A DNA stretch of 64,000 bases, from the NCBI GenBank assembly GCA_015179125.1, contig WHVA01000059.1:267367-331366 (forward strand). The letters are read 5' to 3'. Origin of the DNA: Gautieria morchelliformis (lineage: Eukaryota > Basidiomycota > Agaricomycetes > Gomphales > Gomphaceae). A program made the translations under genes and the position numbers. Below the pieces are notes generated by a model that did not search any database, was not told the origin of the DNA, and saw nothing but the letters and a program-made list of their open reading frames with translations. Below, in pieces: positions 6,425 to 46,000 of the stretch. Position 1 is the stretch's first letter. The number at the start of each line of letters is the position of its first letter.

Positions 6425-6427
6425 CCT

Positions 6428-6650
6428 GTGGAGGTTATGCGCAGTAGTCTAGATATAGAAGCTCAGTGAACGAGGTAGTTCACTGAGTATGTATTAGTAC
6501 TCTACCTAGATATAGAAGCTATCGATGTCTAGATATAAAGCCACTCACTCTGTTGATAGCTTCTATATCTAGGTAGAGTACTAATACATACTCAGTGAAC
6601 TACCTCGTTCACTGAGCTTCTATATCTAGACTACTGCGCATAACCTCCAC
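6428..6650. repeat. Perfect 96-bp inverted repeat with 31-bp loop
   Basis: The arms 6428-6523 and 6555-6650 are exact reverse complements over 96 bp, separated by 31 bp (6524-6554). Each arm has a nested palindrome (ctcagtgaac ... gttcactgag, left copy 6462-6487). The left arm is the end of the Copia-3 LTR/leader, directly upstream of its primer site. The right arm is an inverted copy of it. Confidence 0.95.
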
Positions 6651-7295
6651 AAGAGGGATGTAGATGCTATTGAAAACCATCTGCATAACGGCAGGACACA
6701 ATTTGATCACCCCACTTGCAGTTTGTTGCCGGCCGCGGTGTGGTAGTGTGCAAGGAGGGAAGGTTGTTGAAATCGATGGTTTGTGATTTTGCATGAAGCA
6801 TATTTGTGATCGCAGCCAGCTCAGCAGCCGGCTCAGCAACAGCAGCTTCGTGAAAGTATTTAAAGTCTTCCCGAGTGGTCACAACACGAACGCATCAACG
6901 CTCGTTGCGTCGTCATTCCAGTGTCGCTGATAAACATGTTACTAAGGCTCGCTATAGTAATGTTACAATCCGGCACCTTTCACCTCTCCCCAGGTCTGAC
7001 GACGCAATGTCGCCGCTCATCCATGCCAGGCTCCACACGCCACTGCGCGATAGCGTCCGACACAAGACCGTCGGATATCTTCCCATCCTCATAGCGTGAG
7101 GTCGTCGTCGTGTAATATTGGGTTAGGTGGTCCATGGACCGGTCCGGCCGGGTTGCTCTCCTTTCCCTGATTCTCCGGTCATGCGACAGGCATGCCGCAT
7201 TCAATCTGTCTGACAGGCCTCATGTCGTTTTTCGTTACTGTATGTAAGGGTCAGATCTCCATCGATTCCAGCCTGTTTTGCAGATAGTTCTCTCA
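6651..7295. other. Intergenic region upstream of the DUF2235 gene
   Basis: There is no convincing gene. A 71-codon minus-strand frame at 6667-6882 (starting MTTREDFKYFHEAAVAEP) has gene-like composition and could be the 5' exon of a broken gene cut by the inverted repeat, but I recognise no family. The interval also has to hold the promoter of the downstream + strand gene. I could not single out a TATA box. Confidence 0.4.
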
Positions 7296-22587: not shown

Positions 22588-23084
22588 TGTTGGGTGCATT
22601 AATGCTCCTGCACCAAAATCAAGCATAATATATCCAATTTGTTGTGTGCTTTCTCAATTTCTTCTCATATTGTTCTTGTATCATGCATCCATTTCTCTGG
22701 TTATTTTCGAAATTTTCCACTCACTCCCTATCTCCCCATTTCATCTTGTTATTCCTACTTTCACAAGCGGCTGCACCCAGCGGAGTCTGAAATGACTTCG
22801 ACGCGCGAGCTCTTGGGCGCTAAAGGGCCGGGTAGTAGTACATGCGCAGTGAAACAATTTCCCCCTCTCTCAGTGACAACTAAATTCACTGAGAGAGGCA
22901 AGTAAATTAGTCTAGCATTCTTTCGATTTATTAACCTAGAAATCCTCTGTAGTGAATTGTTTTCTAGGTAGTGTATAATATATTTACAGTGACAACTAAA
23001 TTCACTGAGAGAGTGAATTGTTTTCTAGTCTATTCTTTTGAGCAACAAGTCCATACCTACTGCCTATAATTCCTGTCCTCTACA
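22588..23084 (+). repeat. Solo Copia-1-family LTR (497 bp), TSD gaatg
   Basis: It starts TGTTGGGTGCATT, ends CCTGTCCTCTACA, and is flanked by gaatg at 22583-22587 and 23085-23089. It is nearly identical to the Copia-1 LTRs. The single LTR with an intact TSD indicates LTR-LTR recombination after a full insertion. The internal intron-like block is at 22898-22952. Confidence 0.96.
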
Positions 23085-24047: not shown

Positions 24048-24544
24048 TGTTGGGTGCATTGATGCTCCTGCACCAAAATCAAGCATAATATATCCAATTT
24101 GTTGTGTGCTTTCTCAATTTCTTCTCATGTTGTTCTTGTATCATGCATTCATTTCTCTGGTTATTTTCGAAATTTTCCACTCACTCCCTATCTCTCCATT
24201 TCATCTTGTTATTCCTACTTTCACAAGCGGCTGCACCCAGCGGAGTCTGAAATGACTTCGACGCGCGAGCTCTTGGGCGCTAAAGGGCCGGGTAGTAGTA
24301 CATGTGCAGTGAAACAGTTTCCCCCTCTCTCAGTGACAACTAAATTCACTGAGAGAGGCAAGTAAATTAGTCTAGCATTCTTTCGATTTATTAACCTAGA
24401 AATCCTCTGTAGTGAATTGTTTTCTAGGTAGTGTATAATATATTTATAGTGACAACTAAATTCACTGAGAGAGTGAATTGTTTTCTAGTCTATTCTTTTG
24501 AGCAAGAAGTCCATTCCTACTGCCTATAATTCCTGTCCTCTACA
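24048..24544 (+). repeat. Copia-1 5' LTR
   Basis: Ends are TGTTGGGTGC and CCTCTACA. It contains two copies of a 26-nt hairpin-forming exon, 24332-24357 and 24448-24473. The first is followed by a 55-nt intron-like block; the second is joined directly to the 15-nt downstream exon. Confidence 0.97.
24332..24488 (+). ncRNA. Copia-1 leader: intron-bearing copy followed by intron-less copy
   Basis: Copy 1: 24332-24357 (hairpin exon, cagtga/tcactg stem), 24358-24412 (GCAAGT ... ttattaacct ... CTGTAG, 55 nt), 24413-24427 (tgaattgttttctag). Copy 2: 24448-24473 and 24474-24488 are the same two exons with the 55 nt missing. The junction is ambiguous by two bases, but one of the three alignments gives a GC-AG intron with a canonical AAGT donor continuation and TTAAC branch. 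The 3' LTR (intron 29118-29172) and the solo LTR repeat the arrangement. Confidence 0.75.
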
Positions 24545-24547
24545 GGG

Positions 24548-24557
24548 TTATGGGCCC
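24548..24557 (+). promoter_or_regulatory. Copia-1 primer-binding site overlapping the gag-pol ATG
   Basis: TTATGGGCCC begins 3 nt after the LTR and fits the anticodon arm of initiator tRNA-Met (half-tRNA primer), with at most one G-U pair. The gag-pol start codon is at 24550-24552, inside the site. Confidence 0.7.
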
Positions 24558-27500
24558 CGGACACACTTCTGAGAAGCTATTGGGTGTTGAGAAGCTTGCT
24601 ACTGATGGAAGTAATTGGCCATTGTGGCGAGCCACTCTCATCAGCTATTTCGAGTCCAAAAATCTACTCAAGCATGTAGAAGGGAGAGTCACTCGACCTC
24701 CTGATCCTCCAGTTATGCCCCCAGGCCATATTCTTACAGAAGCTGAGGAAACTCAAATGGATAAGGCTGAGGAGAAGCTGGAGAGATACCTTGCTAGAGA
24801 AGGACAAGCCAAGACCCAAATCATCGTCTCAGTGTCAGAGTCATTAGCCCTGATGCTACAGAAGCAGAAGACAGCAAAAGAGACTTGGGATGCACTGGTC
24901 AATGAGATGACCAAAAAGCCCAAGATGGTCCTCACCAGCCTGCAGAGACAACTCCGCAGTATGAGATGTCCTGAGGATGGAGACTTGAGAGATCATTTGG
25001 ACAAGGCCCAAGACCTATATGCTCGTCTTAATGAGATGGGAGCCAGAGTTTCCGAAGAAGAATTTATGGACATCATTCTTGCGTCACTTCCACCATCCTA
25101 TGAGGCAGTCATGAACGCCCTTACCACTTCGCTTGAAGAATGCGGGATGCCATTGGTCCCTGATAATATTATTAGGGTACTAAAGGCTCAGTATGACAGG
25201 AAGAAAACACTCCCGCAAGAAGAGCAGGTGTTTATTGGTTCATCTATTAAGAAGGACCAGAAGGGGCAGAAGGCGCATGTATGCACCAACTGCAAAAAGC
25301 CTGGACATTCCATCGAAAATTGCTGGGCTAAAGGAGGTGGTAAAGAAGGTCAAGGACCACGTCAGAAGAAAAAAGCCAAAGGCAAGAAGAAGAAGAAGGG
25401 TAAAGCAAAAGCGAATGTTGCCGAAGAAGAGTCCTCTTCTGAGGAAAGTGGTGATGGGCATCTTGCCTTCACCAATTTTGACGAGTGCTCTAATTTCAAT
25501 TTGAGCACATCCTCAGGAGTTATAGTTATACTCGACACCGGAACGACATCGCATATGACTCCTCATAAAAATTTATTGAGGAACTACTGTCAATTCTCAC
25601 AGCCGAGGACTATCCGAGCAGCCAACAAAGGCACTTTTGATGCCTTCGGTTCAGGACTGCTTGTATTATCCAACAAGGTTGGAGATAAAACAGTAGAAGT
25701 CACGTTGCAAGATACATATTATGCTCCAAAAATTGCTGCCACCCTCGTCTCGATCGGTCGGTGCGATGATGCTGGCTACGACATTCGACTCGGTGGCCAG
25801 AAATGCACAATATCTAACGCTACTGGAAAGGTATTGATGCAAGCACCGAAGGTCAATGGTTTATATCGACTAGACCTCCAGTCACCAAGTGCTCAAGCCC
25901 ATATGTGTTTGTCTGCCATGGAAATTCATCAAAAAATGGGGCATATCTCACAGAAGTCCCTACAACATCTATTAAATCATGGCATGATATTGGGCATTGA
26001 ACTGAGCTCCACAGGCGATAGAATTGTCTGCGATGCGTGTATTCAGGCCAAGATTGCACGCAAACCTCTTCCTCGAGAACCCAGAGACCGAACGTCAAAA
26101 TTCGGTGACAGAATTTATTCTGATGTCTGGGGACCTGCAAGACACCTCACAATCGATAAGAAGTCATATTATGTCTCCTTTATCGATGACTACTCAAGAG
26201 AATCGGTGATTTATCTCATGGCGAACAAATCAGAAGCATTCTCAAAGTACAAGCTCTATGAGGCTTTAATGCTTCGACAGAGAAATGTGCACATCAAGGC
26301 AGTTGTTTCTGATCGAGGGGGCGAGTATACGAGCTCTGAATTCGAACAGCATCTAGCCAAACAGGGCACGGAGCATCAGTTGACGGTACACGACACACCA
26401 GAGTCTAATGGTGTTGCCGAACGTCTGAACCAAACTCTCACTGAGAGAACTCGTGCCATGCTGTTAGAATCAAGCCTTCCTAAGATATTATGGGGCTATG
26501 CGATACAGCATGCCAATTATCTTAGGAATAGGACGCATACAAGAGCTCTACCGGATAAAACGCCCTACGAGATGATTCACCATGAAAAACCGAATCTCAA
26601 AGACATTCACGCGTGGGGAACTGAAATCTATGTTAAAGTCACTCAGGGAGATAAATTGGCAGCTCGTGCCAAGAGAGCTCGGTGGATAGGAATTTCTGCG
26701 CAGAGCCATGGTCATTATGTTTATTGGCCTGACTCGCACAAAGTTTCTGTCGAGCGGAACGTTGTGTTTGATTCAGAGATGAAGAAGGGAAAGGTCCCAA
26801 TCATTTCTATTGAGGAATCCAAGCTACCTACGTCTAGAGAAGAGAAGAAGGCCATTCCGGCATCAGTGTCTGTGCCCGGTCGCTTAGTCAGCGAAGAGGC
26901 AAAGATCGAAGAAATTGATGAAAATGCACCAGAGGAATATCTTGAAAAGCTGCAACCTATTCAGGGAGTTGATGACAGACCTAGAGAAGCTGAACCGATA
27001 AGGAGAAGCGAAAGGATCCGTCAACAACAAGTGCAGCCGGCCCCATCAGGTCCCGTAACAAGATCTCAAACCCAGAGACAAGCTGGCGCACATATGACTA
27101 CGCTAGCTTACGAGGACGTTGAGGACCATAAAGAAGTTTTATTCGACCAAGAATTATCCTCCGAGATTGATGGCATCAGTAGCTATGAGTGTGCCATCAG
27201 TGCGTTTCTAACCGACGGTCAAAACAATAACAAGGCGCCGGATTTGAGTCAAATTGAACCTAGCAATGCAGACGAAGCTCTGAATAATCCTATATGGAAG
27301 AAATCAATGGACAAAGAGTATGAGGCCCTAATCGACAAGGGAGTGTGGGAACGAGCCAAACCACCTCCTGGAGCCAATATTGTCGGTAATAAATGGGTCT
27401 ACCTTTGGAAGCGTAACCCAGAAGGGAAACCAATAATGCCTAAATCGAGAATGGTCGCCCAAGGCTTCACACAGAAGTTTGGAGTCGACTATGATGAGAC

Positions 27501-28794
27501 ATACTCACCTGTTGCTCGGTTATCCTCCCTATGGATCATATGCGCCATTGCTGCTAGGAATGACTGGCCTATCCATCAAATGGACGTGGACTATGCATAC
27601 CTCAATGCTACACTGCCTGAACCTATTTACATGAAGCAGCCGTATGGATATGAGTCTGGAGACAAAGACGAAGTGCTACTTTTGAAGAAAGCACTCTATG
27701 GCCTCAAACAATCTGGAAGGGAATGGTACAAACATCTAAGTGGTGAATTCCATAAATTAGGATTCACCACGTCAGCCACAGATGGGGCTGTATTTTATAG
27801 ACGTGGCGGAAAGGGGCATGTGATCATTGCAACAGCTGTGGATGATCTCACCATCACAGCTGAGAATCAGTCAATCCTGGACGAAGTCAAACGAGATCTT
27901 GCTCAGGTCTTCAGTATGAAAGATCTAGGCGAGATCCATTGGCTATTGAATCTCAAAATCGAAAGAGACTGGCAGAAGAAAACTATTGCAATTTCACAAC
28001 CTGCATACATCGAGAAGATCATCAAAAAATTCAATCTCGAAGATGCAAAGACTTATGCTACGCCCCTTGATCCAGCTGTTAAATTATCAAAAGACCAGTG
28101 TCCTTCTACAGAGAGAGGCAAGAAAGCCATGTCGAAGTTTCCGTACAGGCAAGCTATAGGATCACTGATGTGGGCAGCTGTAGCCACTCGACCTGACATT
28201 GCATTTGCGGTGTCATTGCTTTCGCAATTCCTCGAAAATCCAGGTGGCACACATTGGAATGCAGTCAAACGTGTCTTCAAATATTTGAAAGGCACGAAGC
28301 ATTACAAGCTCACACTTGGAAGAAATCGAGACGGCTTGATGGGGTATTCAGATGCGGATTGGGGTTCACAGAGTCATAGGCGTTCGTATTCGGCATACTT
28401 ATTTCAGATTGATGGAGGCACTGTTTCATGGAGTTGCCAGAAACAGTCGATAGTAGCCCTCTCATCAACTGAAGCCGAATTCGTTGCCCTGACCCATGCG
28501 GGCAAAGAGGCTCTCTGGATGCGCCATTTTATTTCTGAAATATTCCAACCACTGAACAGACCCATCAAAATTTATTCAGACAATCAATCAGCCATTGCCA
28601 TCACGTATGGCACTCAACAACACACGAGAACCAAACATTTCGACATCAGATTATATTTCCTTCGAGATATAATCAAAAATCAACAAGCCAAGCTCGTTTA
28701 TTTGCCAACCGAACAAATGTTGGCAGATATCCTCACCAAAGGACTTCCTAGTCCTAGAGTGAAGATCCTCAACGAACAAATCGGAATATATTAA
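24550..28794 (+). CDS. Copia-1 Gag-Pol polyprotein (1414 aa)
   Basis: A single frame starts at the ATG within the primer site and ends 13 bp before the 3' LTR. Domains: Gag with DUF4219/UBN2-like N-terminus (DGSNWPLWRATLISYFESK); knuckle CTNCKKPGHSIENC from residue 245; aspartic protease LDTGTTSHM at residue 329; GAG-pre-integrase zinc region from H460 (HQKMGH ... CDACIQAK); integrase core with D525 (YSDVWG), D588 (SDRGGEY) and E624 (NGVAERLNQ); RT with D1012 (MDVDYAYLNA) and the AVDDL form of the YVDD box at 1098; RNase H (GYSDADWGSQ, SSTEAEFVAL, KIYSDNQSAIAI, TKHFDIRLYFLRD, ADILTKGL). Basic runs after the knuckle are probably Gag nucleic-acid binding. No stop, frameshift or lost catalytic residue is seen. 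Confidence 0.97.
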   Translation: MGPGHTSEKLLGVEKLATDGSNWPLWRATLISYFESKNLLKHVEGRVTRPPDPPVMPPGHILTEAEETQMDKAEEKLERYLAREGQAKTQIIVSVSESLALMLQKQKTAKETWDALVNEMTKKPKMVLTSLQRQLRSMRCPEDGDLRDHLDKAQDLYARLNEMGARVSEEEFMDIILASLPPSYEAVMNALTTSLEECGMPLVPDNIIRVLKAQYDRKKTLPQEEQVFIGSSIKKDQKGQKAHVCTNCKKPGHSIENCWAKGGGKEGQGPRQKKKAKGKKKKKGKAKANVAEEESSSEESGDGHLAFTNFDECSNFNLSTSSGVIVILDTGTTSHMTPHKNLLRNYCQFSQPRTIRAANKGTFDAFGSGLLVLSNKVGDKTVEVTLQDTYYAPKIAATLVSIGRCDDAGYDIRLGGQKCTISNATGKVLMQAPKVNGLYRLDLQSPSAQAHMCLSAMEIHQKMGHISQKSLQHLLNHGMILGIELSSTGDRIVCDACIQAKIARKPLPREPRDRTSKFGDRIYSDVWGPARHLTIDKKSYYVSFIDDYSRESVIYLMANKSEAFSKYKLYEALMLRQRNVHIKAVVSDRGGEYTSSEFEQHLAKQGTEHQLTVHDTPESNGVAERLNQTLTERTRAMLLESSLPKILWGYAIQHANYLRNRTHTRALPDKTPYEMIHHEKPNLKDIHAWGTEIYVKVTQGDKLAARAKRARWIGISAQSHGHYVYWPDSHKVSVERNVVFDSEMKKGKVPIISIEESKLPTSREEKKAIPASVSVPGRLVSEEAKIEEIDENAPEEYLEKLQPIQGVDDRPREAEPIRRSERIRQQQVQPAPSGPVTRSQTQRQAGAHMTTLAYEDVEDHKEVLFDQELSSEIDGISSYECAISAFLTDGQNNNKAPDLSQIEPSNADEALNNPIWKKSMDKEYEALIDKGVWERAKPPPGANIVGNKWVYLWKRNPEGKPIMPKSRMVAQGFTQKFGVDYDETYSPVARLSSLWIICAIAARNDWPIHQMDVDYAYLNATLPEPIYMKQPYGYESGDKDEVLLLKKALYGLKQSGREWYKHLSGEFHKLGFTTSATDGAVFYRRGGKGHVIIATAVDDLTITAENQSILDEVKRDLAQVFSMKDLGEIHWLLNLKIERDWQKKTIAISQPAYIEKIIKKFNLEDAKTYATPLDPAVKLSKDQCPSTERGKKAMSKFPYRQAIGSLMWAAVATRPDIAFAVSLLSQFLENPGGTHWNAVKRVFKYLKGTKHYKLTLGRNRDGLMGYSDADWGSQSHRRSYSAYLFQIDGGTVSWSCQKQSIVALSSTEAEFVALTHAGKEALWMRHFISEIFQPLNRPIKIYSDNQSAIAITYGTQQHTRTKHFDIRLYFLRDIIKNQQAKLVYLPTEQMLADILTKGLPSPRVKILNEQIGIY

Positions 28795-28807: not shown

Positions 28808-29304
28808 TGTTGGGTGCATTGATGCTCCTGCACCAAAATCAAGCATAATATATCCAATTTGTTGTGTGCTTTCTCAATTTCTTCTCATGTTGTTCTTGTA
28901 TCATGCATTCATTTCTCTGGTTATTTTCGAAATTTTCCACTCACTCCCTATCTCTCCATTTCATCTTGTTATTCCTACTTTCACAAGCGGCTGCACCCAG
29001 CGGAGTCTGAAATGACTTCGACGCGCGAGCTCTTGGGCGCTAAAGGGCCGGGTGGTAGTACATGCGCAGTGAAACAGTTTCCCCCTCTCTCAGTGACAAC
29101 TAAATTCACTGAGAGAGGCAAGTAAATTAGTCTAGCATTCTTTCGATTTATTAACCTAGAAATCCTCTGTAGTGAATTGTTTTCTAGGTAGTGTATAATA
29201 TATTTATAGTGACAACTAAATTCACTGAGGGAGTGAATTGTTTTCTAGTCTATTCTTTTGAGCAAGAAGTCCATTCCTACTGCCTATAATTCCTGTCCTC
29301 TACA
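28808..29304 (+). repeat. Copia-1 3' LTR
   Basis: This 497-bp copy differs from the 5' LTR at about three sites (gggtggtagtacatgc versus gggtagtagtacatgt, and gagggag versus gagagag). TSD gtggc follows at 29305-29309. Confidence 0.97.
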
Positions 29305-35939: not shown

Positions 35940-36550
35940 CCAATCCGTGTTTAACGTGGCTGTGTGCTATGCTATCTATGGACAGGTTGTGATAGAGTGT
36001 AGTTAAGAGAATTTTTTGGTATTTGGTGGTGACGGTAGGCGTGAGAAAGTTCACCACTAGTTCCAGTAATACACGATTCACCGGGCCTGGGGCCGCCCGG
36101 GGCCGCTGACTTTCAGCAGTCCACGCTGGCAATTAGCATTTGCAGCACTCGCACCCACTTGCACCCACCCTTGATCGGGACCGCACGGTGCTGCGCGTTG
36201 TCACACAACGTGTGGCACCGTGGTTCAACACGTCCCATCGGACGTCGCTCGCACCCAGCGCCAAGTGGCGGCCCTTGGTGCACCGTCGACTTCCACGAGG
36301 AACCTTGTCACCACTTGCTCCCACTCTCAGGTGAGCGCTGTTATCTAACATTCAGCGCTGAGACTCACCAGCTGTCGGCCCCGCCGTACACTCGCGTGTC
36401 CATCTGCGCCCCACCCTGTTTCGTCCACACCCAGCCCCCAATTGTGGCACTAGTGCTCTATCCCGTGGCGTCTGATTGTAAGCATGACGCTGCCCTCACC
36501 AACACTGGCAATGCTAGCAAAACATCTCAAGTGAAAGAGAATCGCAGACT
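35940..36550. other. LINE 5' region and unassigned GC-rich sequence
   Basis: 35940-36130 is probably LINE 5' UTR. 36130-36550 is rich in CAC/GTG words (gcacccacttgcaccc, cacacaacgtgtggcac) and has short open frames on both strands without known motifs. No gene is supported. Confidence 0.4.
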
Positions 36551-37027
36551 GTAGGATGTCGAGCGTCTTGTAGCTCAGCATGACCTGGGAAGGTGGAACA
36601 ATTGGTCTGTGCTCGACCCCCTTTCGATTTGAGACACGCATATGTGTATGCGTGCATGTACAGTAATGTAACCTTCCCAGTGACTATTTGCTGCCACTGG
36701 GAAGTAAGTCGTTAACCTGTATACTATAGTTCACCGCTAACTAACTTGTAGTTAACAACTGTCTTTAGGTAGCTTATAATAGTGACTATTTGCTGCCACT
36801 GGGAAGTAAGTCGTTAACCTGTATACTATAGTTCACCGCTAACTAACTTGTAGTTAACAACTGTCTTTAGGTAGCTTATAATAGTGACTATTTGCTGCCA
36901 CTGGGAAGTAAGTCGTTAACCTGTATACTATAGTTCACCGCTAACTAACTTGTAGTTAACAACTGTCTTTAGGTAGCTTATAATAGTGACTATTTGCTGC
37001 CACTGGGAATTAACAACTGTCTTTAGG
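36551..37027 (+). repeat. Copia-2 5' LTR and leader with 3.5 tandem units
   Basis: The left end is inferred from TGTAGGATGTC at 36551. The stretch catgtacagtaatgtaacc before the array parallels catgcgcagtgaaacaat before the array of Copia-1, which places both arrays at the same point of the LTR. The right limit is the primer site at 37028. A partner 3' LTR is not in the window because the element is truncated. Confidence 0.6.
36679..37027 (+). ncRNA. Three identical 102-bp units with a 48-nt intron, then one unit lacking exactly the intron
   Basis: Units start at 36679, 36781 and 36883 (period 102) and are identical by eye. Each has a hairpin exon (ttcccagtg ... cactgggaa), then GTAAGT ... 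gctaactaac ... TTGTAG (48 nt; first copy 36704-36751), then ttaacaactgtctttagg. The fourth unit (36985-37027) has the hairpin exon joined directly to ttaacaactgtctttagg. The junction is unambiguous and falls exactly at the GT and AG. It then runs straight into the primer site. Confidence 0.85.
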
Positions 37028-37037
37028 TTATGGGCCC
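37028..37037 (+). promoter_or_regulatory. Copia-2 primer-binding site overlapping the gag ATG
   Basis: TTATGGGCCC, as in Copia-1 and Copia-3, with an ATG at 37030. In this copy the frame from that ATG hits a TGA after seven codons. Confidence 0.7.
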
Positions 37038-39876
37038 TGGCCCTACCTTCTGAATGCAAAAATCCACTGTAACAATGCCAGCTACACCTCTTGATAAAAT
37101 GAACAATTACCAGTCAAGTACTGGTACTGCCTACTCTGTGTTCCCAAAGTTGCACCATGATAATTACTTTTCATGGAGTGCAAGTATGGAGTCGATGTTG
37201 CGATCCCTCAACCAGTGGGAGGTTGTGATGGGAAGAGTCCCCAGTCCGATACGTGCTGATTCGAAGGCTCCTACGGATGAGGAGCTAGAGCTAGAAGAAG
37301 CTTGGACGCTCCGGATGGAGTGTGCGTACACATAAATTGATCTGCGTCTTGAAGAACAGCAACAGACGGTGACTCGTGATAATCACGACCCATGCTTGGC
37401 CTGGAACACACTGCATACGGTGTATGGCAATTGTTTAGCAAATACGAGAGCATCGCTGCTTGGAGAAATCACTCACATTCATTATGACGGTTCCGGTATC
37501 ATGGAGCATAAAGCCAGGATGGACTCATTACGTTTGAGGCTCGTAGAAGCTGGCCATCCTGTTCCAGAGCCGCTCTATCTTAGCTTCTTTGTCAACACAC
37601 TCCTAGAGGAGTTTGACACAGTTACCAATACCATCGACTGGGATCATGACACGGTGGCGGAATTGGTCAGCAATCTGCGTCAGGTGGAGATAAGGAAAGG
37701 TTTGCGCACCAGGGCAGAGGGCTCAGCCTTTGCTGTAGCAAAGAAGAAGCAGCAAAAGCCCGGAACGACCTCAACTTCGACCTCGCAGAGGGCCATGCAG
37801 AGCACCCCACAGAGCGCGCGAGGGGGAGCAAGCCGAAGAAGTCTTCGGGATGCTCTGGCAAATGCTATAATTGCGGAGGTCAAGGCCATTTTGCAAAGGA
37901 TTGCCCCTCTCCGAAGAAGAAGAGGGACAGCGGTTCACAACAAGATACAAAAAAGGACTCACCGACTGGCCATCAGGATAAGACCAAAGGGAGCCCTTCT
38001 ACGTCACGTGGATTATTCTCAGCCATTGAGACATCGATGTTCTTGGGCGATAGTCCTGTTACATGGCGCTGCTTTATTGATACAGCGGCATCAGGGAACT
38101 TTACGCCAAAAATAGAGGACTTACACAATTTCATCCCATTCACGAGTCCTAGGTCCTTCACTGCCGCAAATGGTGCGGAGGTGCAATCGAAGGGTAATGG
38201 TACTGCAAAAATCAGAGTGAACAATCATGGAGAACAGAGGACCGTTGAAATCCCACATGTCCAGTGGGTGCCAAGCATTTATACGCACCTATTCTCTCCT
38301 GGACAGCTTATAAAAGACGGGTTCAAAGTAAACCTCCACAGAGATGGCTGTACCATCAAAGACTCGGTGAATAGATTAGTAGCCGAAGTATGCAAAAGAG
38401 GAAACACTTACCCTGCGGATTTCTCGATCATGCAGCCGCGTAACCCATGCCCGATTGTTCACTCGATCGTAGAACCTACTGCAGAAGAGTTGAACAATAG
38501 ACTCAATGAAGCAGTAATGGCACTTACAGTGAAGGAGGAGAATGATGCTATGTGTTGGCATCAGAGGCTCGGACATCTGAACATCACGGACATGTGCAAT
38601 TTGGCAGCGAAACATGCCACAGGCATGCAAATCATAGAAGATCAGATCATTAGTGCCGATTGTTTGGCGTGCATACATGGTAAACAGCATAAGACGCCAT
38701 TTAAAACAGGGAGAACCAGAGCGACTCACGCAGGTGAATTGATCCATATGGACTTGGCCGGTCCCATGGAGACTACCGGCTTTGATGGGAAAAAATATTT
38801 CCTGATCATCGTGGATGATTATACACGAGTGGTTTGGGTGGAATCACTTACCCTCAAATTGGAGGTCGTTTCCAAGGTATGGGAGTTGATCCAGGTATTT
38901 GAAACTGGTTATGAAGCCAAGGTCTGAGGCATTATGGCCGACAATGGAACCAATTTCGTTAATAATGAGATGAACTGGTATTTACAGGAAAAAGGAATCA
39001 CCTTGTATACTTCAGTCCCTTACACGCACAAACAAAATGGTGTTGCTGAAAGAGCGATCTGCATGATTACTGAGGGGGCGCGAGTCATGTTGTATGCATC
39101 CAAACTGCCAAAGAACTTGTGGTCAATGGCAGTGAAGACCATGGTGTACCTTTGCGATAGATCGCCGGCACAAGCTAATGGGGGAATTACACCGATTGAG
39201 CGCATTATGGGTGAGAAGCCAAATTTAGCTCACCTGAGAGTTTTTGATTCCCCAGTCAGTGTTGCAATCCCTAAGGAAAAGAGAAAGAAATGGGACGTAT
39301 GGTCACGTATGGCGTACATGGTGGGGTATGAACCATATTCCACTGGATACTTAGTCTGGTATCCGGGTACGCGCCATATAGATAAGGCGAGGGATGTCAT
39401 CTTTCATGAAGACACAGTAACCCCCGCAATGCCTACAGTATACGGCAACAATGATATGCATCGCAATGTTAGCGAGTCAGCAACTATGAAACCGACGTCG
39501 TACGTACCTCAAAAATCCTCAGCAGCACCTCAAGCTCCAACTGTACCCCCATGACTTTTTATATGCATCCCAGCATTCCCTACACGTGTCGAATATGGCC
39601 CTGAGGATCAGGGCCATGCCACAATTGAAGAAGTCTCCCTGGATCAGCCTGAACAAGATTGGTCAAAATTAGTTTCAGATGTACCTAATTTTCCTCAGGG
39701 AACAACACGTTCAGGCAAAGCACGAGGAGCGATACAAGCCTTACTAGCGACCAATGAGCAATTTAAAGACTCTGTAATAATGTCAGCTAATATCGCAGGA
39801 GAGCCAACGAACATAAACTATGCAGTGACCTTACCTGGTGAAGAAGGTGAAGCATGGGAGCGAGCACGAAAAACTT
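37030..39876 (+). pseudogene. Copia-2 gag-pol, truncated before RT
   Basis: Gag: FPKLHHDNYFSWSASMESML (DUF4219-like) and a UBN2-like region (SLLGEITHIHYDGSGIMEHK). After a frameshift at about 37790-37860 comes the knuckle CYNCGGQGHFAKDC. Protease: FIDTAASGNFTP, with D-T-A-A in place of DSGA. GAG-pre-integrase: HQRLGHLNITDMC ... CLACIHGKQH. Integrase: HMDLAGPMETTGFDGKKYFL (D), then TGA at 38925-38927, MADNGTNFVNNEMNWYLQEK (D), HKQNGVAERAICMI (E). The linker ends in YAVTLPGEEGEAWERARK near 39876, just before RT would begin. Stops at 37049-37051, 37333-37335 and 38925-38927 plus the truncation make it dead. Confidence 0.9.
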
Positions 39877-43098: not shown

Positions 43099-46000
43099 CT
43101 ACTGACTAGGTTCTTGACCTGCGAACGGTGCTGAAATGTACTCGACAGTGCCTGCATTCCACACACGGATTGTGTTGTCATAAGACCCGGAGACGATGCG
43201 CTTGCCATCCTGCGAGAATGCCACCGACGAGACGATGTCGGTGTGGCCTTCGAGTGGTGCTGAAGTGGCCTCCCCGGTGTCTGCGTTCCACACACGGATC
43301 GTCTTGTCAAAAGACCCGGAGACGATGCGCTTGCCGTCCTGCGAGAATGCCACCGATGTGACGCAGTTGATGTGGCCTTTGAATGGTGCTGAAATGACCT
43401 CCCCGGTGTCTGAATTCCACACACGGATCGTCTTGTCTAAAGACCCGGAGACGATGAGCTTGCCGTCCGGCGAGAATGCCACCGACGAGACGATGTCGGT
43501 GTGGCCTTCGAGTGGTGCTGAAGTGGCCTCCCCGGTGTCTGCATTCCACACACGGATCGTCTTGTCCCAAGACCCGGAGACGATGCGCTTGCCGTCCGGC
43601 GACAATACCACTGACGTGACCGTGTCGGTGTAGCCTTCGAGTGGTACTGAAGCGGCCTCCCCGGTGTCTGCATTCCACACACGGATCGTGTTGTCTAAAG
43701 ACCCAGAGACGATCCGCTTGCCGTCCTGCGAGAATGCCACCGACGAGACGGTCCAGGAATGACCTACCAGAACGGTTTGAATAGGTAGCCACGTCGTCGC
43801 TTTCCCGGTCTCGATGCGGAGTAGTCGTGGAAATCGTGGGAGGTAAGTCTCAGATACTTTCGACCTTTCAGGTGCAAACGGGAGTGCCGACAAATAGAGA
43901 TGGGGAGCACTCTGAGAGATTACGCTCCCAAACGCAGCTGCAAAATTGCGGGCATCTGTCACGCATGCTGTAGTATAATTATCCTGGGGTTCATTAGACT
44001 CACGTCAGAACTCGTCTATCAAAGCCATGGCACTTGGGCGTGGCGCTTACCTGGCTCCATACAACTACTGATGAGAGGGCCGCCGATACGATGGATACCT
44101 TCTTGAGCAAACTCAAAACTTCTAGCCAGTAGAGTAGCTTAGTCTCGAAGAACGCCTTGACTTTTGCACCTATATCAGGAATAAATGTCGTGACGGAAAT
44201 GTGGTCCGCCCAGAAACGACAAGAGTAGGAAAGTTGTGATGATATGTACTTCTTGATCCGTTCCGGCAAGTCGACAACATCATTGTTGCGTAGATGCGAA
44301 GTTTCAAGCTGACAGATGTTAAAGCAAAGTTCCTCCATCATCACGCGCAAGGAAGAGCACGCAAGGCTATCATGGTGTAAAGATGGATCGATGTAGTATG
44401 GTCCACTCCGATTGCGATCTGTCAAGAAGTCACGAAAAGATGTGTGCAGCAGAGTGATTGGGTCACATTCTTGAGTAGGAAGCCTCAACAGAGCGCCCAT
44501 GGGTCCAACGATATGATGAACCTTGGTACCCGACTCGTTAGGACTGCACAACCTCTGGAGGGCAGACATCGAGAGCGGTTCTCTGGCCATCAGCAGGCAT
44601 CCCATCACCGAGTGAAAGCGACGCTGGAAATCGTAATCATCCGTCAAGTCATCGTCATCCCCGAATATCTGCTTGAGAATGCCGAGGTATAGCCGATCCA
44701 ATCCACGGAGGTTCTTGACCAAGAGTTTCTGCAGTTGCTGAACAGGATCCCGACCACCCTTCCCATCTCCTTTGACAAAACGACAAGCCGTAGAGGCCCA
44801 TTGAAAGTGACCTTCAGATTTCTCAACTAATAATCGACACCAGCCATTATTGGGCCATTTGTGCTCGAGGGCCGTAACGTGACCTAGCTGGACTTTCACA
44901 AAGCGAGAGACGTCATCGGCAGGGTTGGGGTCAATATCCTTTATGGACCTGGACAGCACATGCTTCTTCCCAAGAAGAGCATCCTGGATGTCTTGTTCGG
45001 CCCGCGAGGTGATAAGGAGACGGAGATTAGAGGGCAGTTTTGCTGCTTCATCGCCAAGGACAGACAAGAGACCCTCGCGAGATTCCTCGTCTCCGCTCTC
45101 ATCCAATGCATCAATAACTATCACCGTCGGTCCAACGGCGGTTAGGCCCTGAGCGGGACCTAGAATGAACTTCTCGAACTGCACACTAGGCACGAATGTG
45201 GTCCGAAGTTCTCGTTGCTCCCGAACCATATTCAATAACGATGACTTGCGTTCTGGATCTAGATCAGCCAGGCCGCGAGCAATTGTGCTGAAAACATTTT
45301 TGGGGGAGCGTTCTACCTGATGAGCGCGGTCAAAACAGTACGACGATCCGAGACGTTTGAGCCTGTCAAATCGTCGAGCGACCTCGTGAGCAATCGCAGA
45401 TTTGCCGGCACCCGCGACATCGTACAAGAAAAATATCCGGGGGGTGTCGTCGCTATCCTGGTTGACCCACTCGCAGATCTCACCAACAACTTTCTCGCGA
45501 GTACCCGGCAGACAGCCTTTTTTAGGATCGCAACCAGCTCCCACTGCATAGGGCATGTCATTAAGCTGAACTTCCCCGGCTGGTTGCAAGGTGTATTAGC
45601 CTCAGGAAAGGCCCCAATTCAGAAACTCACAGAGATCGCCGATGACACCCAGAACACGTAGGACGGTGATTTCAGTATGAATAACCGCATGTCCCTGTAG
45701 CGCCAACCTGAGTTTGTTGAACGTGTCCTGGTATTGTTTGACCTTGCTGTCGACATCCGACACTAGATTCCTCGCGGTTCTTTTCCCTGAATAAAGATCA
45801 TAAGCCATGGCCACCTGACACAAAGGGTCCAAAATACAAAAGTTCTTGTTTTTGGCATAGTCACGGATAAAGTAACTACACTCTATTGTCTGATTCGTCA
45901 AGGGTATGATAATTGGCTTTTGCGATTCGACGTTCTTCAACGGCTCTGCGAAGTGGACGAAGGCATAGGCGTCTCCGATGGTTTTTGCCAACTCATTGAT

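Follow-up and report, generated by a model that had tools for sequence, protein, structure and literature searches.

Copia LTRs with an apparent intron beside its own spliced copy in four retrotransposon families of Gautieria morchelliformis

With regard to the systems described so far, spliceosomal introns occur in the RNAs of LTR retrotransposons such as copia, BARE1, Ogre, EVADE and Cer1, where they serve subgenomic or protein-coding RNAs, and the parts of these sources that treat them mention neither introns inside the LTR nor spliced LTR copies (PMC3735527, PMC12786077). According to the portion devoted to BARE, retrotransposons have to exclude spliced RNA from packaging and reverse transcription (PMC3735527), and a 1985 experiment, outlined in a section of another source, followed Ty with an artificial intron and its precise loss via an RNA intermediate (PMC12786077). 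In foamy viruses, according to part of a further source, the major splice donor lies in R and its structure differs between the two LTR contexts (PMC3694450). A leader intron of an LTR element should vanish after one round of reverse transcription. The elements reported here resemble the first group in having, as predicted, a spliceosomal intron in the RNA of an LTR element, and differ in that the intron and its spliced copy lie inside the LTR. They are also like the marked Ty in the precise absence of an intron that points to an RNA intermediate, the difference being that the Ty intron was artificial and its loss permanent (in the account given in PMC12786077), whereas here a natural intron is kept beside its spliced copy.

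The window, by which we mean the whole analysed stretch of 64,000 nucleotides (G000:C659:267367-331366), belongs to an assembly of 122 Mb in 1113 contigs, fungal in its intron size and gene content, and contains a truncated Ty1/copia retrotransposon, recognised by its Pfam domains, with a 5' LTR at 36550-37025. Judged by its proteins, this element is an ordinary Copia, as the Pfam scan returned four Copia-type domains (PF14223, PF22936, PF13976 and PF25597), among which gag_2 (PF14223) scored 23 bits, under its curated cut-off of 27 bits. It is like the Ty1/copia elements with an internal half-tRNA primer site in its copia Pfam domains and in the LTR pairs with 5-bp duplications found in its relatives, and we take the sequence at 37026-37037 to resemble the half-tRNA primer site of copia; unlike them, its LTR holds an intron unit together with the spliced copy of that unit. 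No 3' LTR of this kind lies in the window, since a motif search there found the exon-1 motif nowhere outside the 5' LTR. In what follows, F1 is the family of the window element, F2, F3 and F4 are three further Copia families, I denotes an intron unit and S a spliced unit. The features are listed below.

36550-37025, plus strand: 5' LTR of the Ty1/copia element, with U3 at 36550-36678; its start TGTAGG and end TCTTTA match copies with 5-bp target duplications.
36673-36678, plus strand: U3 arm CTTCCC, complementary to the end of exon 1 and forming the outer part of the stem CTTCCCAGTG/CACTGGGAAG, from the sequence and the stem lengths.
36679-36703, plus strand: exon 1 (a) of unit 1, the A at 36679 being the presumed transcription start, placed at the left edge of between-unit similarity in four families.
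36704-36751, plus strand: putative intron of unit 1, 48 nt, GTAAGT...GCTAAC...TTGTAG, found by pattern search; its signals are retained across 35 distinct F1 introns.
36752-36768, plus strand: exon 2 (b) of unit 1, with the end TTTAG; the right edge is AG in F3 and F4.
36769-36780, plus strand: spacer s, GTAGCTTATAAT, where a second intron may have its 5' splice site; in four families b is followed by GTA, some copies being without it.
36781-36882, plus strand: unit 2, an identical intron unit with its intron at 36806-36853 (Tandem Repeats Finder, pattern search).
36883-36984, plus strand: unit 3, an identical intron unit with its intron at 36908-36955 (Tandem Repeats Finder, pattern search).
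36985-37025, plus strand: spliced unit, a (36985-37009) joined straight to b (37010-37025).
37026-37037, plus strand: presumed primer site GGTTATGGGCCC, common to other Copia families of this genome.
37369-39551, plus strand: Copia coding remnants in broken frames (gag_2, Pol_BBD, gag_pre-integrase and SH3-like), by Pfam.

Elsewhere in the window, three 300-nt stretches (22588-22887, 24048-24347 and 28808-29107) are 98-99% alike, and the latter two flank an open frame of 1414 amino acids (ORF 24550-28794); this pair is possibly like LTRs around an intact element, with 22588-22887 as a possible solo LTR. A perfect 97-bp inverted repeat (6427-6523 and 6555-6651) encloses a 31-bp loop. On the minus strand at 43099-45586, WD40 repeats encoded as 129-bp tandem DNA units (4.8 copies, 87% match) stand beside an NPHP3_N/AAA ATPase frame, an arrangement resembling an NLR-type gene of fungi whose repeats are kept alike.

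A sequence-only reading of this stretch had described three identical 102-bp units, each with a 48-nt segment running GTAAGT...CTAAC...TTGTAG, and this is confirmed by the sequence and by Tandem Repeats Finder, which reported a tandem array at 36679-37013 (period 102, 3.3 copies, 99% match). The pattern GTAAGT-N{22,34}-CTAAC-N{2,10}-TAG matched three times in the window against 0.02 expected from shuffles, and a 24-nt exon-1 motif matched there four times at up to three mismatches against 0 expected. The fourth unit, 36985-37025, indeed lacks exactly those 48 nt, its junction GGGAA/TTAAC can be slid in neither direction and permits the single alignment that had been claimed, and it directly adjoins the presumed primer site. 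The segment has GT-AG ends, a branch-site sequence and a length of fungal type, as judged against the usual length range of fungal introns, and among 35 distinct F1 introns, 47-53 nt long, GTRAGT, CTAAC and TTGTAG are kept with few exceptions. These observations support its identity as a spliceosomal intron, with splicing as the probable process. Of the proposal that the leader RNA is spliced and reverse-transcribed, the conserved intron signals and the resemblance of the last unit to a product of reverse transcription stand; the splicing itself we infer.

The LTR can be written as U3 - a - intron - b - s - a - b, and we lean towards the reading that the second a-b preserves the spliced leader in DNA form and is renewed through strong-stop cDNA. 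In such a model, transcription would start at the A of the first a and the leader would become a-b followed by the primer site: intron 1 would be spliced out, and s-a-b, a segment of 51-60 bases in the four families, would be removed either as a second intron with GT-AG ends or by a template jump between the identical a-b repeats. At the 3' end of the genomic RNA, the strong-stop cDNA of the spliced leader would then anneal to the second a, which presupposes an RNA end beyond that a, and extension into U3 would rebuild the whole LTR. Because the annealing would lie downstream of the intron, the intron would survive despite leader splicing and the spliced unit would be rewritten. A leader spliced at intron 1, and possibly at the second intron too, would yield strong-stop cDNA that looks like the spliced unit with its tail. 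The candidate second intron shows AG/GTA at the unit end in most copies; its 5' sites (GTAG.., GTAC..) are weak and lost in some copies, and this weakness disfavours the model.

Throughout the assembly, the exact exon-1 14-mer, which misses decayed F1 copies, was found at 140 places, followed by G or A (the intron side) in 70 and by C or T (the spliced side) in 70, counts that are no proof alone, as reversed-pattern controls were high in two runs (113+107 and 112+104, apparently another repeat) and low in a third (1+3), and the copies themselves were read. DNA similarity searches scored at most 40 places each, the best 40 of 108 candidates in one search and the best 40 of 93 in that for F3. 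A single odd or misassembled window copy was rejected as an explanation after many family copies had been read elsewhere in the assembly. With unit chains classed by fuzzy patterns (of the first units damaged in the intron or exon 2, L007, L027, L049 and L087, three were assigned by hand, whereas L027 stayed classed as a single spliced unit), and with both ends of one element and duplicated segments counted separately, the 86 F1 LTRs with readable U3 comprised 53 I-S, 17 S-only, 12 I-only, one I-I-S (L002), one I-I-I-S (the window) and two broken off after I. I-S is the usual LTR of F1, and the 3+1 arrangement of the window is an expanded variant, with 2+1 in one other copy.

Whether the last unit is always without the 48 nt had been proposed as a check, and this was observed: the spliced form was assigned by fuzzy pattern in all 57 chains ending in a second unit (57/57), which favours the model, as do the conserved intron signals. 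No second units with other deletions occurred among the rows listed, and the damaged introns of L049, L087 and L068 are imprecise and located in first units. The strong-stop transfer put forward in the sequence-only reading survives as the likely joining step, and its misaligned form fits only the additional intron units in the window copy and in L002: strong-stop cDNA of an unspliced leader on the second a would add an intron unit, giving the 2+1 copy and the 3+1 of the window. What falls is the notion of chance stacking in one element, as I-S is the usual LTR of the family (53/86) and three other families show the plan as well. Taken by itself, the window copy could also be read as ordinary deletion of the 48-nt segment from the last unit, or its insertion in the others, the segment then being no intron; this we hold to be very improbable, given the same exact difference in dozens of copies of four families of different sequence and the three pattern matches against the near-zero shuffle expectation, and given that imprecise deletions look different and occur in first units. 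Ordinary deletion as the source of the spliced unit was rejected after the copies had been read.

Among relatives with matching 5-bp target duplications, I-S stands at both ends on C275, C654, C331, C773, C904, C387 and C729 (0 to 7 LTR mismatches) and S-only at both ends on C215 (1 mismatch) and C304 (2), whereas the ends are unequal inside one duplication on C635 (5' S, 3' I-S) and C704 (5' I, 3' I-S). No match was found at C1 (I-S/I-S), C197 (I/I) and C557 (I-S/I), and C564 has only 4 bases. Since solo LTRs and elements with 5-bp target duplications carry the units, these are part of the LTR itself. C215 and C304 indicate that S-only LTRs are formed during complete rounds of transposition or persist through them, which favours the model; C635 and C704 indicate that I-only and S-only LTRs can arise by slippage and hence provide no separate proof of splicing. 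According to the model, annealing to the first a would lose the intron and leave an S-only LTR, slippage between repeats being possible as well, and an I-only LTR would come from a leader spliced solely at the second intron or from slippage between b copies, as C704 suggests. On the U3 tree (86 rows, 115 columns, 43 of 62 inner branches open), at least five changes to S-only and at least four to I-only fall on starred branches alone, and the LTR classes are hardly clustered (22 changes against a shuffled mean of 24.1, as low in 40/200), so that both forms arose repeatedly; two sets of LTRs have identical U3 in more than one class. The F1 classification of unit chains contained no S-S, I-I or I-S-S chains, which disfavours the model, since simple versions of it could give rise to them; the absence of S-S would mean that the second unit is lost whenever intron 1 is removed, by splicing or template jumping.

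Several individual loci are of separate interest. L012 (G000:C157:124500-129400) has three composite LTRs head to tail, 1123 bases apart, with outer flanks sharing GAAAG, and forms a tandem short element, probably non-autonomous, within one target duplication, and at L069 (G000:C384:79343-80791) two F1 LTRs are head-on inverted, one being cut within the spacer. The 5' LTR of L019 (G000:C716) and the 3' LTR of L033 (G000:C171) have the flank AAGAC and a rare intron variant in common across contigs, which may reflect either rearrangement or an assembly break. L058 (G000:C280:41533-42746) is a composite that has no spacer: at a TGTCTTT common to both, b of unit 1 passes directly into the spliced unit's exon 1, either through independent joining or through later deletion. 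No relative was found in viral contigs; the protein search matched 22 proteins, none of them on a contig longer than 5,289 bases.

The two units of one LTR have a joint history. In 30 distinct composites, the exons of I and S within the same LTR are on average 1.63 edits apart, compared with 5.69 to the S units of other LTRs (0/10000 permutations, a test that ignores the relatedness of copies), and in 23 distinct exon types the values are 1.83 against 5.96, with 1.09 against 3.33 for exon 1 alone and 0.74 against 2.63 for exon 2 alone. This own-LTR match favours the model. Yet in just 15 of the 23 types (12 for exon 1, 21 for exon 2) is no other S unit nearer than the LTR's own, so I and S match by lineage and not always by single copy, which disfavours it. 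Lineage-specific exon changes occur in both units, so that after the lineages had diverged the S unit was renewed from the I unit, or both were exchanged. Directly behind the intron, the first four bases form three lineage types and are the same in both units in 29 of 30 composites, a further point for the model, and homologous crossing-over cannot easily carry bases at the intron edge. Variant b ends occur in both own units of L148 (F3) and L137 (F4). The idea that s was freshly copied from each lineage's own U3 was unsupported when judged by eye.

These data also bear on the explanation that splicing and reverse transcription produced the spliced unit once or a few times long ago and that I-S has since been inherited as mere sequence, while template switching or gene conversion, during which the intron loops out, maintains the likeness of the units. 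The spacer s looks related across lineages, hence an old layout, slippage between repeats is seen at C635 and C704, the 2+1 and 3+1 copies could be unequal exchange or misaligned transfer, and S-S chains are missing from the F1 classes, all of which fit an old origin. Such an origin nevertheless has to face the agreement of the intron-edge bases, where crossing-over has no homology on one side, the absence from the F1 classes of the I-S-S and I-I intermediates expected for an exchange of b, and the persistence of the plan in four sequence-diverged families, and we consider it rather unlikely.

The 19-base primer-site pattern occurs at 285 places in the assembly at up to three mismatches, and from 20 loci fetched among 100 listed of these places, three more Copia families with the same LTR plan were found, F2, F3 and F4, whose LTRs have no evident sequence likeness to F1; their plan favours strong-stop renewal. 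F2 includes composites at L119, L101 and L149 and intron-only LTRs at L106, L107 and L108, F3 includes composites at L115, L147 and L148 and a spliced-only LTR at L116, and F4 has 14 places that we read as composites, the site being damaged in two of them, and a single spliced-only LTR, at C389. The best 40 of 93 F3 candidates match a composite query over at least 218 of 241 bases, in a list that favours composites and is not a base-by-base reading. On C2, the 5' LTR is S-only (L116), with a composite match 4.3 kb further on the same strand. The plan was not apparent, by eye, in three further groups judged from two copies each (L109/L110, L111/L112 and L113/L114).

In all four families, the spliced unit starts with AGYG and the intron is precisely missing. 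Agreement between units at the base before the A of AG(T/C)G is 0.34 in F1 (n=32), 0.50 in F2 (n=2), 0.33 in F3 (n=3) and 0.40 in F4 (n=10), F2 resting on two copies and F3 on three, and from that A onward it is mostly 0.7-1.0 across the next ten bases; the patterns require the AGYG start and the b end, so identity within the unit is partly by construction and the drop outside is not. At the far edge, identity drops from 1.00 to 0.00 directly past AG in F3 and F4, where unit 1 continues with GT (GC in one F4 copy) and unit 2 with the U5 tail; for F1 and F2 this edge lies at the LTR end and is less sharply readable. The sharp edges at AG(T/C)G in four families and at AG in F3 and F4 favour the model, and the fact that the left-edge pattern itself requires the A disfavours it. 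A full TATATA lies at -32 of the presumed start in F3, the second a having 5 of 6 matching bases at -36 to -38; this is consistent with a start at the first A in F3 and likewise favours the model. In F1, F2 and F4, the best TATA-like match before the first a is 4 or 5 of 6 and the second a is as good in several copies, and this equality outside F3 counts against the model.

It also lends something to the proposal that transcription starts at the second a, so that the intron unit would be part of U3, never present in the 5' leader and without a role in replication. Stable inheritance of I-S and the absence of S-S would then be explained without present-day splicing. This proposal, however, gives no reason for the conserved intron signals, leaves the renewal of the spliced unit and the added intron units of L001 and L002 unexplained, and is disfavoured by the TATATA of F3; we regard it as improbable.

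Turning to U3, its end is complementary to the end of exon 1 in all four families, with a stem in unit 1 of mostly 10-13 pairs (range 5-13; 25 of 32 listed in F1) and of 4-8 pairs in the S unit. In folding predictions, the 5' splice site becomes less accessible with the native U3 in 5/5 copies of F2, 3/3 of F3 and 12/13 of F4. For F1, hiding of the site by U3 failed the folding test, being seen in 17/50 copies, with the mean accessibility rising from 0.35 to 0.39, and this result disfavours the model. A hairpin hiding the 5' splice site in F2-F4 is thus a possible extra of the model. The arrangement recalls foamy viruses, as far as these are covered in the part of PMC3694450 drawn upon, in that a 5' splice site lies just past the start within the LTR and U3, present at the 3' end only, can alter its structure (PMC3694450); by folding prediction, the likeness holds for F2-F4 and is unsupported for F1, the family of the window element. 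The differences are that the same part describes no spliced R copy in foamy virus LTRs (PMC3694450) and that in the present elements the acceptor lies inside the LTR.

Beyond the renewal of the second a-b, a stronger reading can be entertained, tentatively and with less conviction: splicing may be obligate in replication, each new LTR would receive fresh cDNA of a doubly spliced leader as its R, the intron would be kept by downstream annealing, and in F2-F4 the hairpin would hide the splice site of the 3' LTR only. The sequence-only reading knew of no LTR family described in such a way, and our full-text search of the open-access literature, with subscription papers mostly outside it, likewise found no description of an LTR with an intron and its own spliced copy. 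Relative to the open-access literature searched, the LTR plan and the replication step that it would imply are new. The LTRs of F1-F4 appear to reverse the rule stated for BARE, in that the intron is kept side by side with the spliced copy. If the model is true, they would document in nature a reverse transcription coupled to splicing, with strong-stop transfer readable base by base, and would offer a further way for two identical LTRs to act differently at the two ends of an RNA. If splicing is indeed obligate, this would be a replication scheme of LTR elements undescribed in the open-access literature searched and common to at least four Copia families of one genome.
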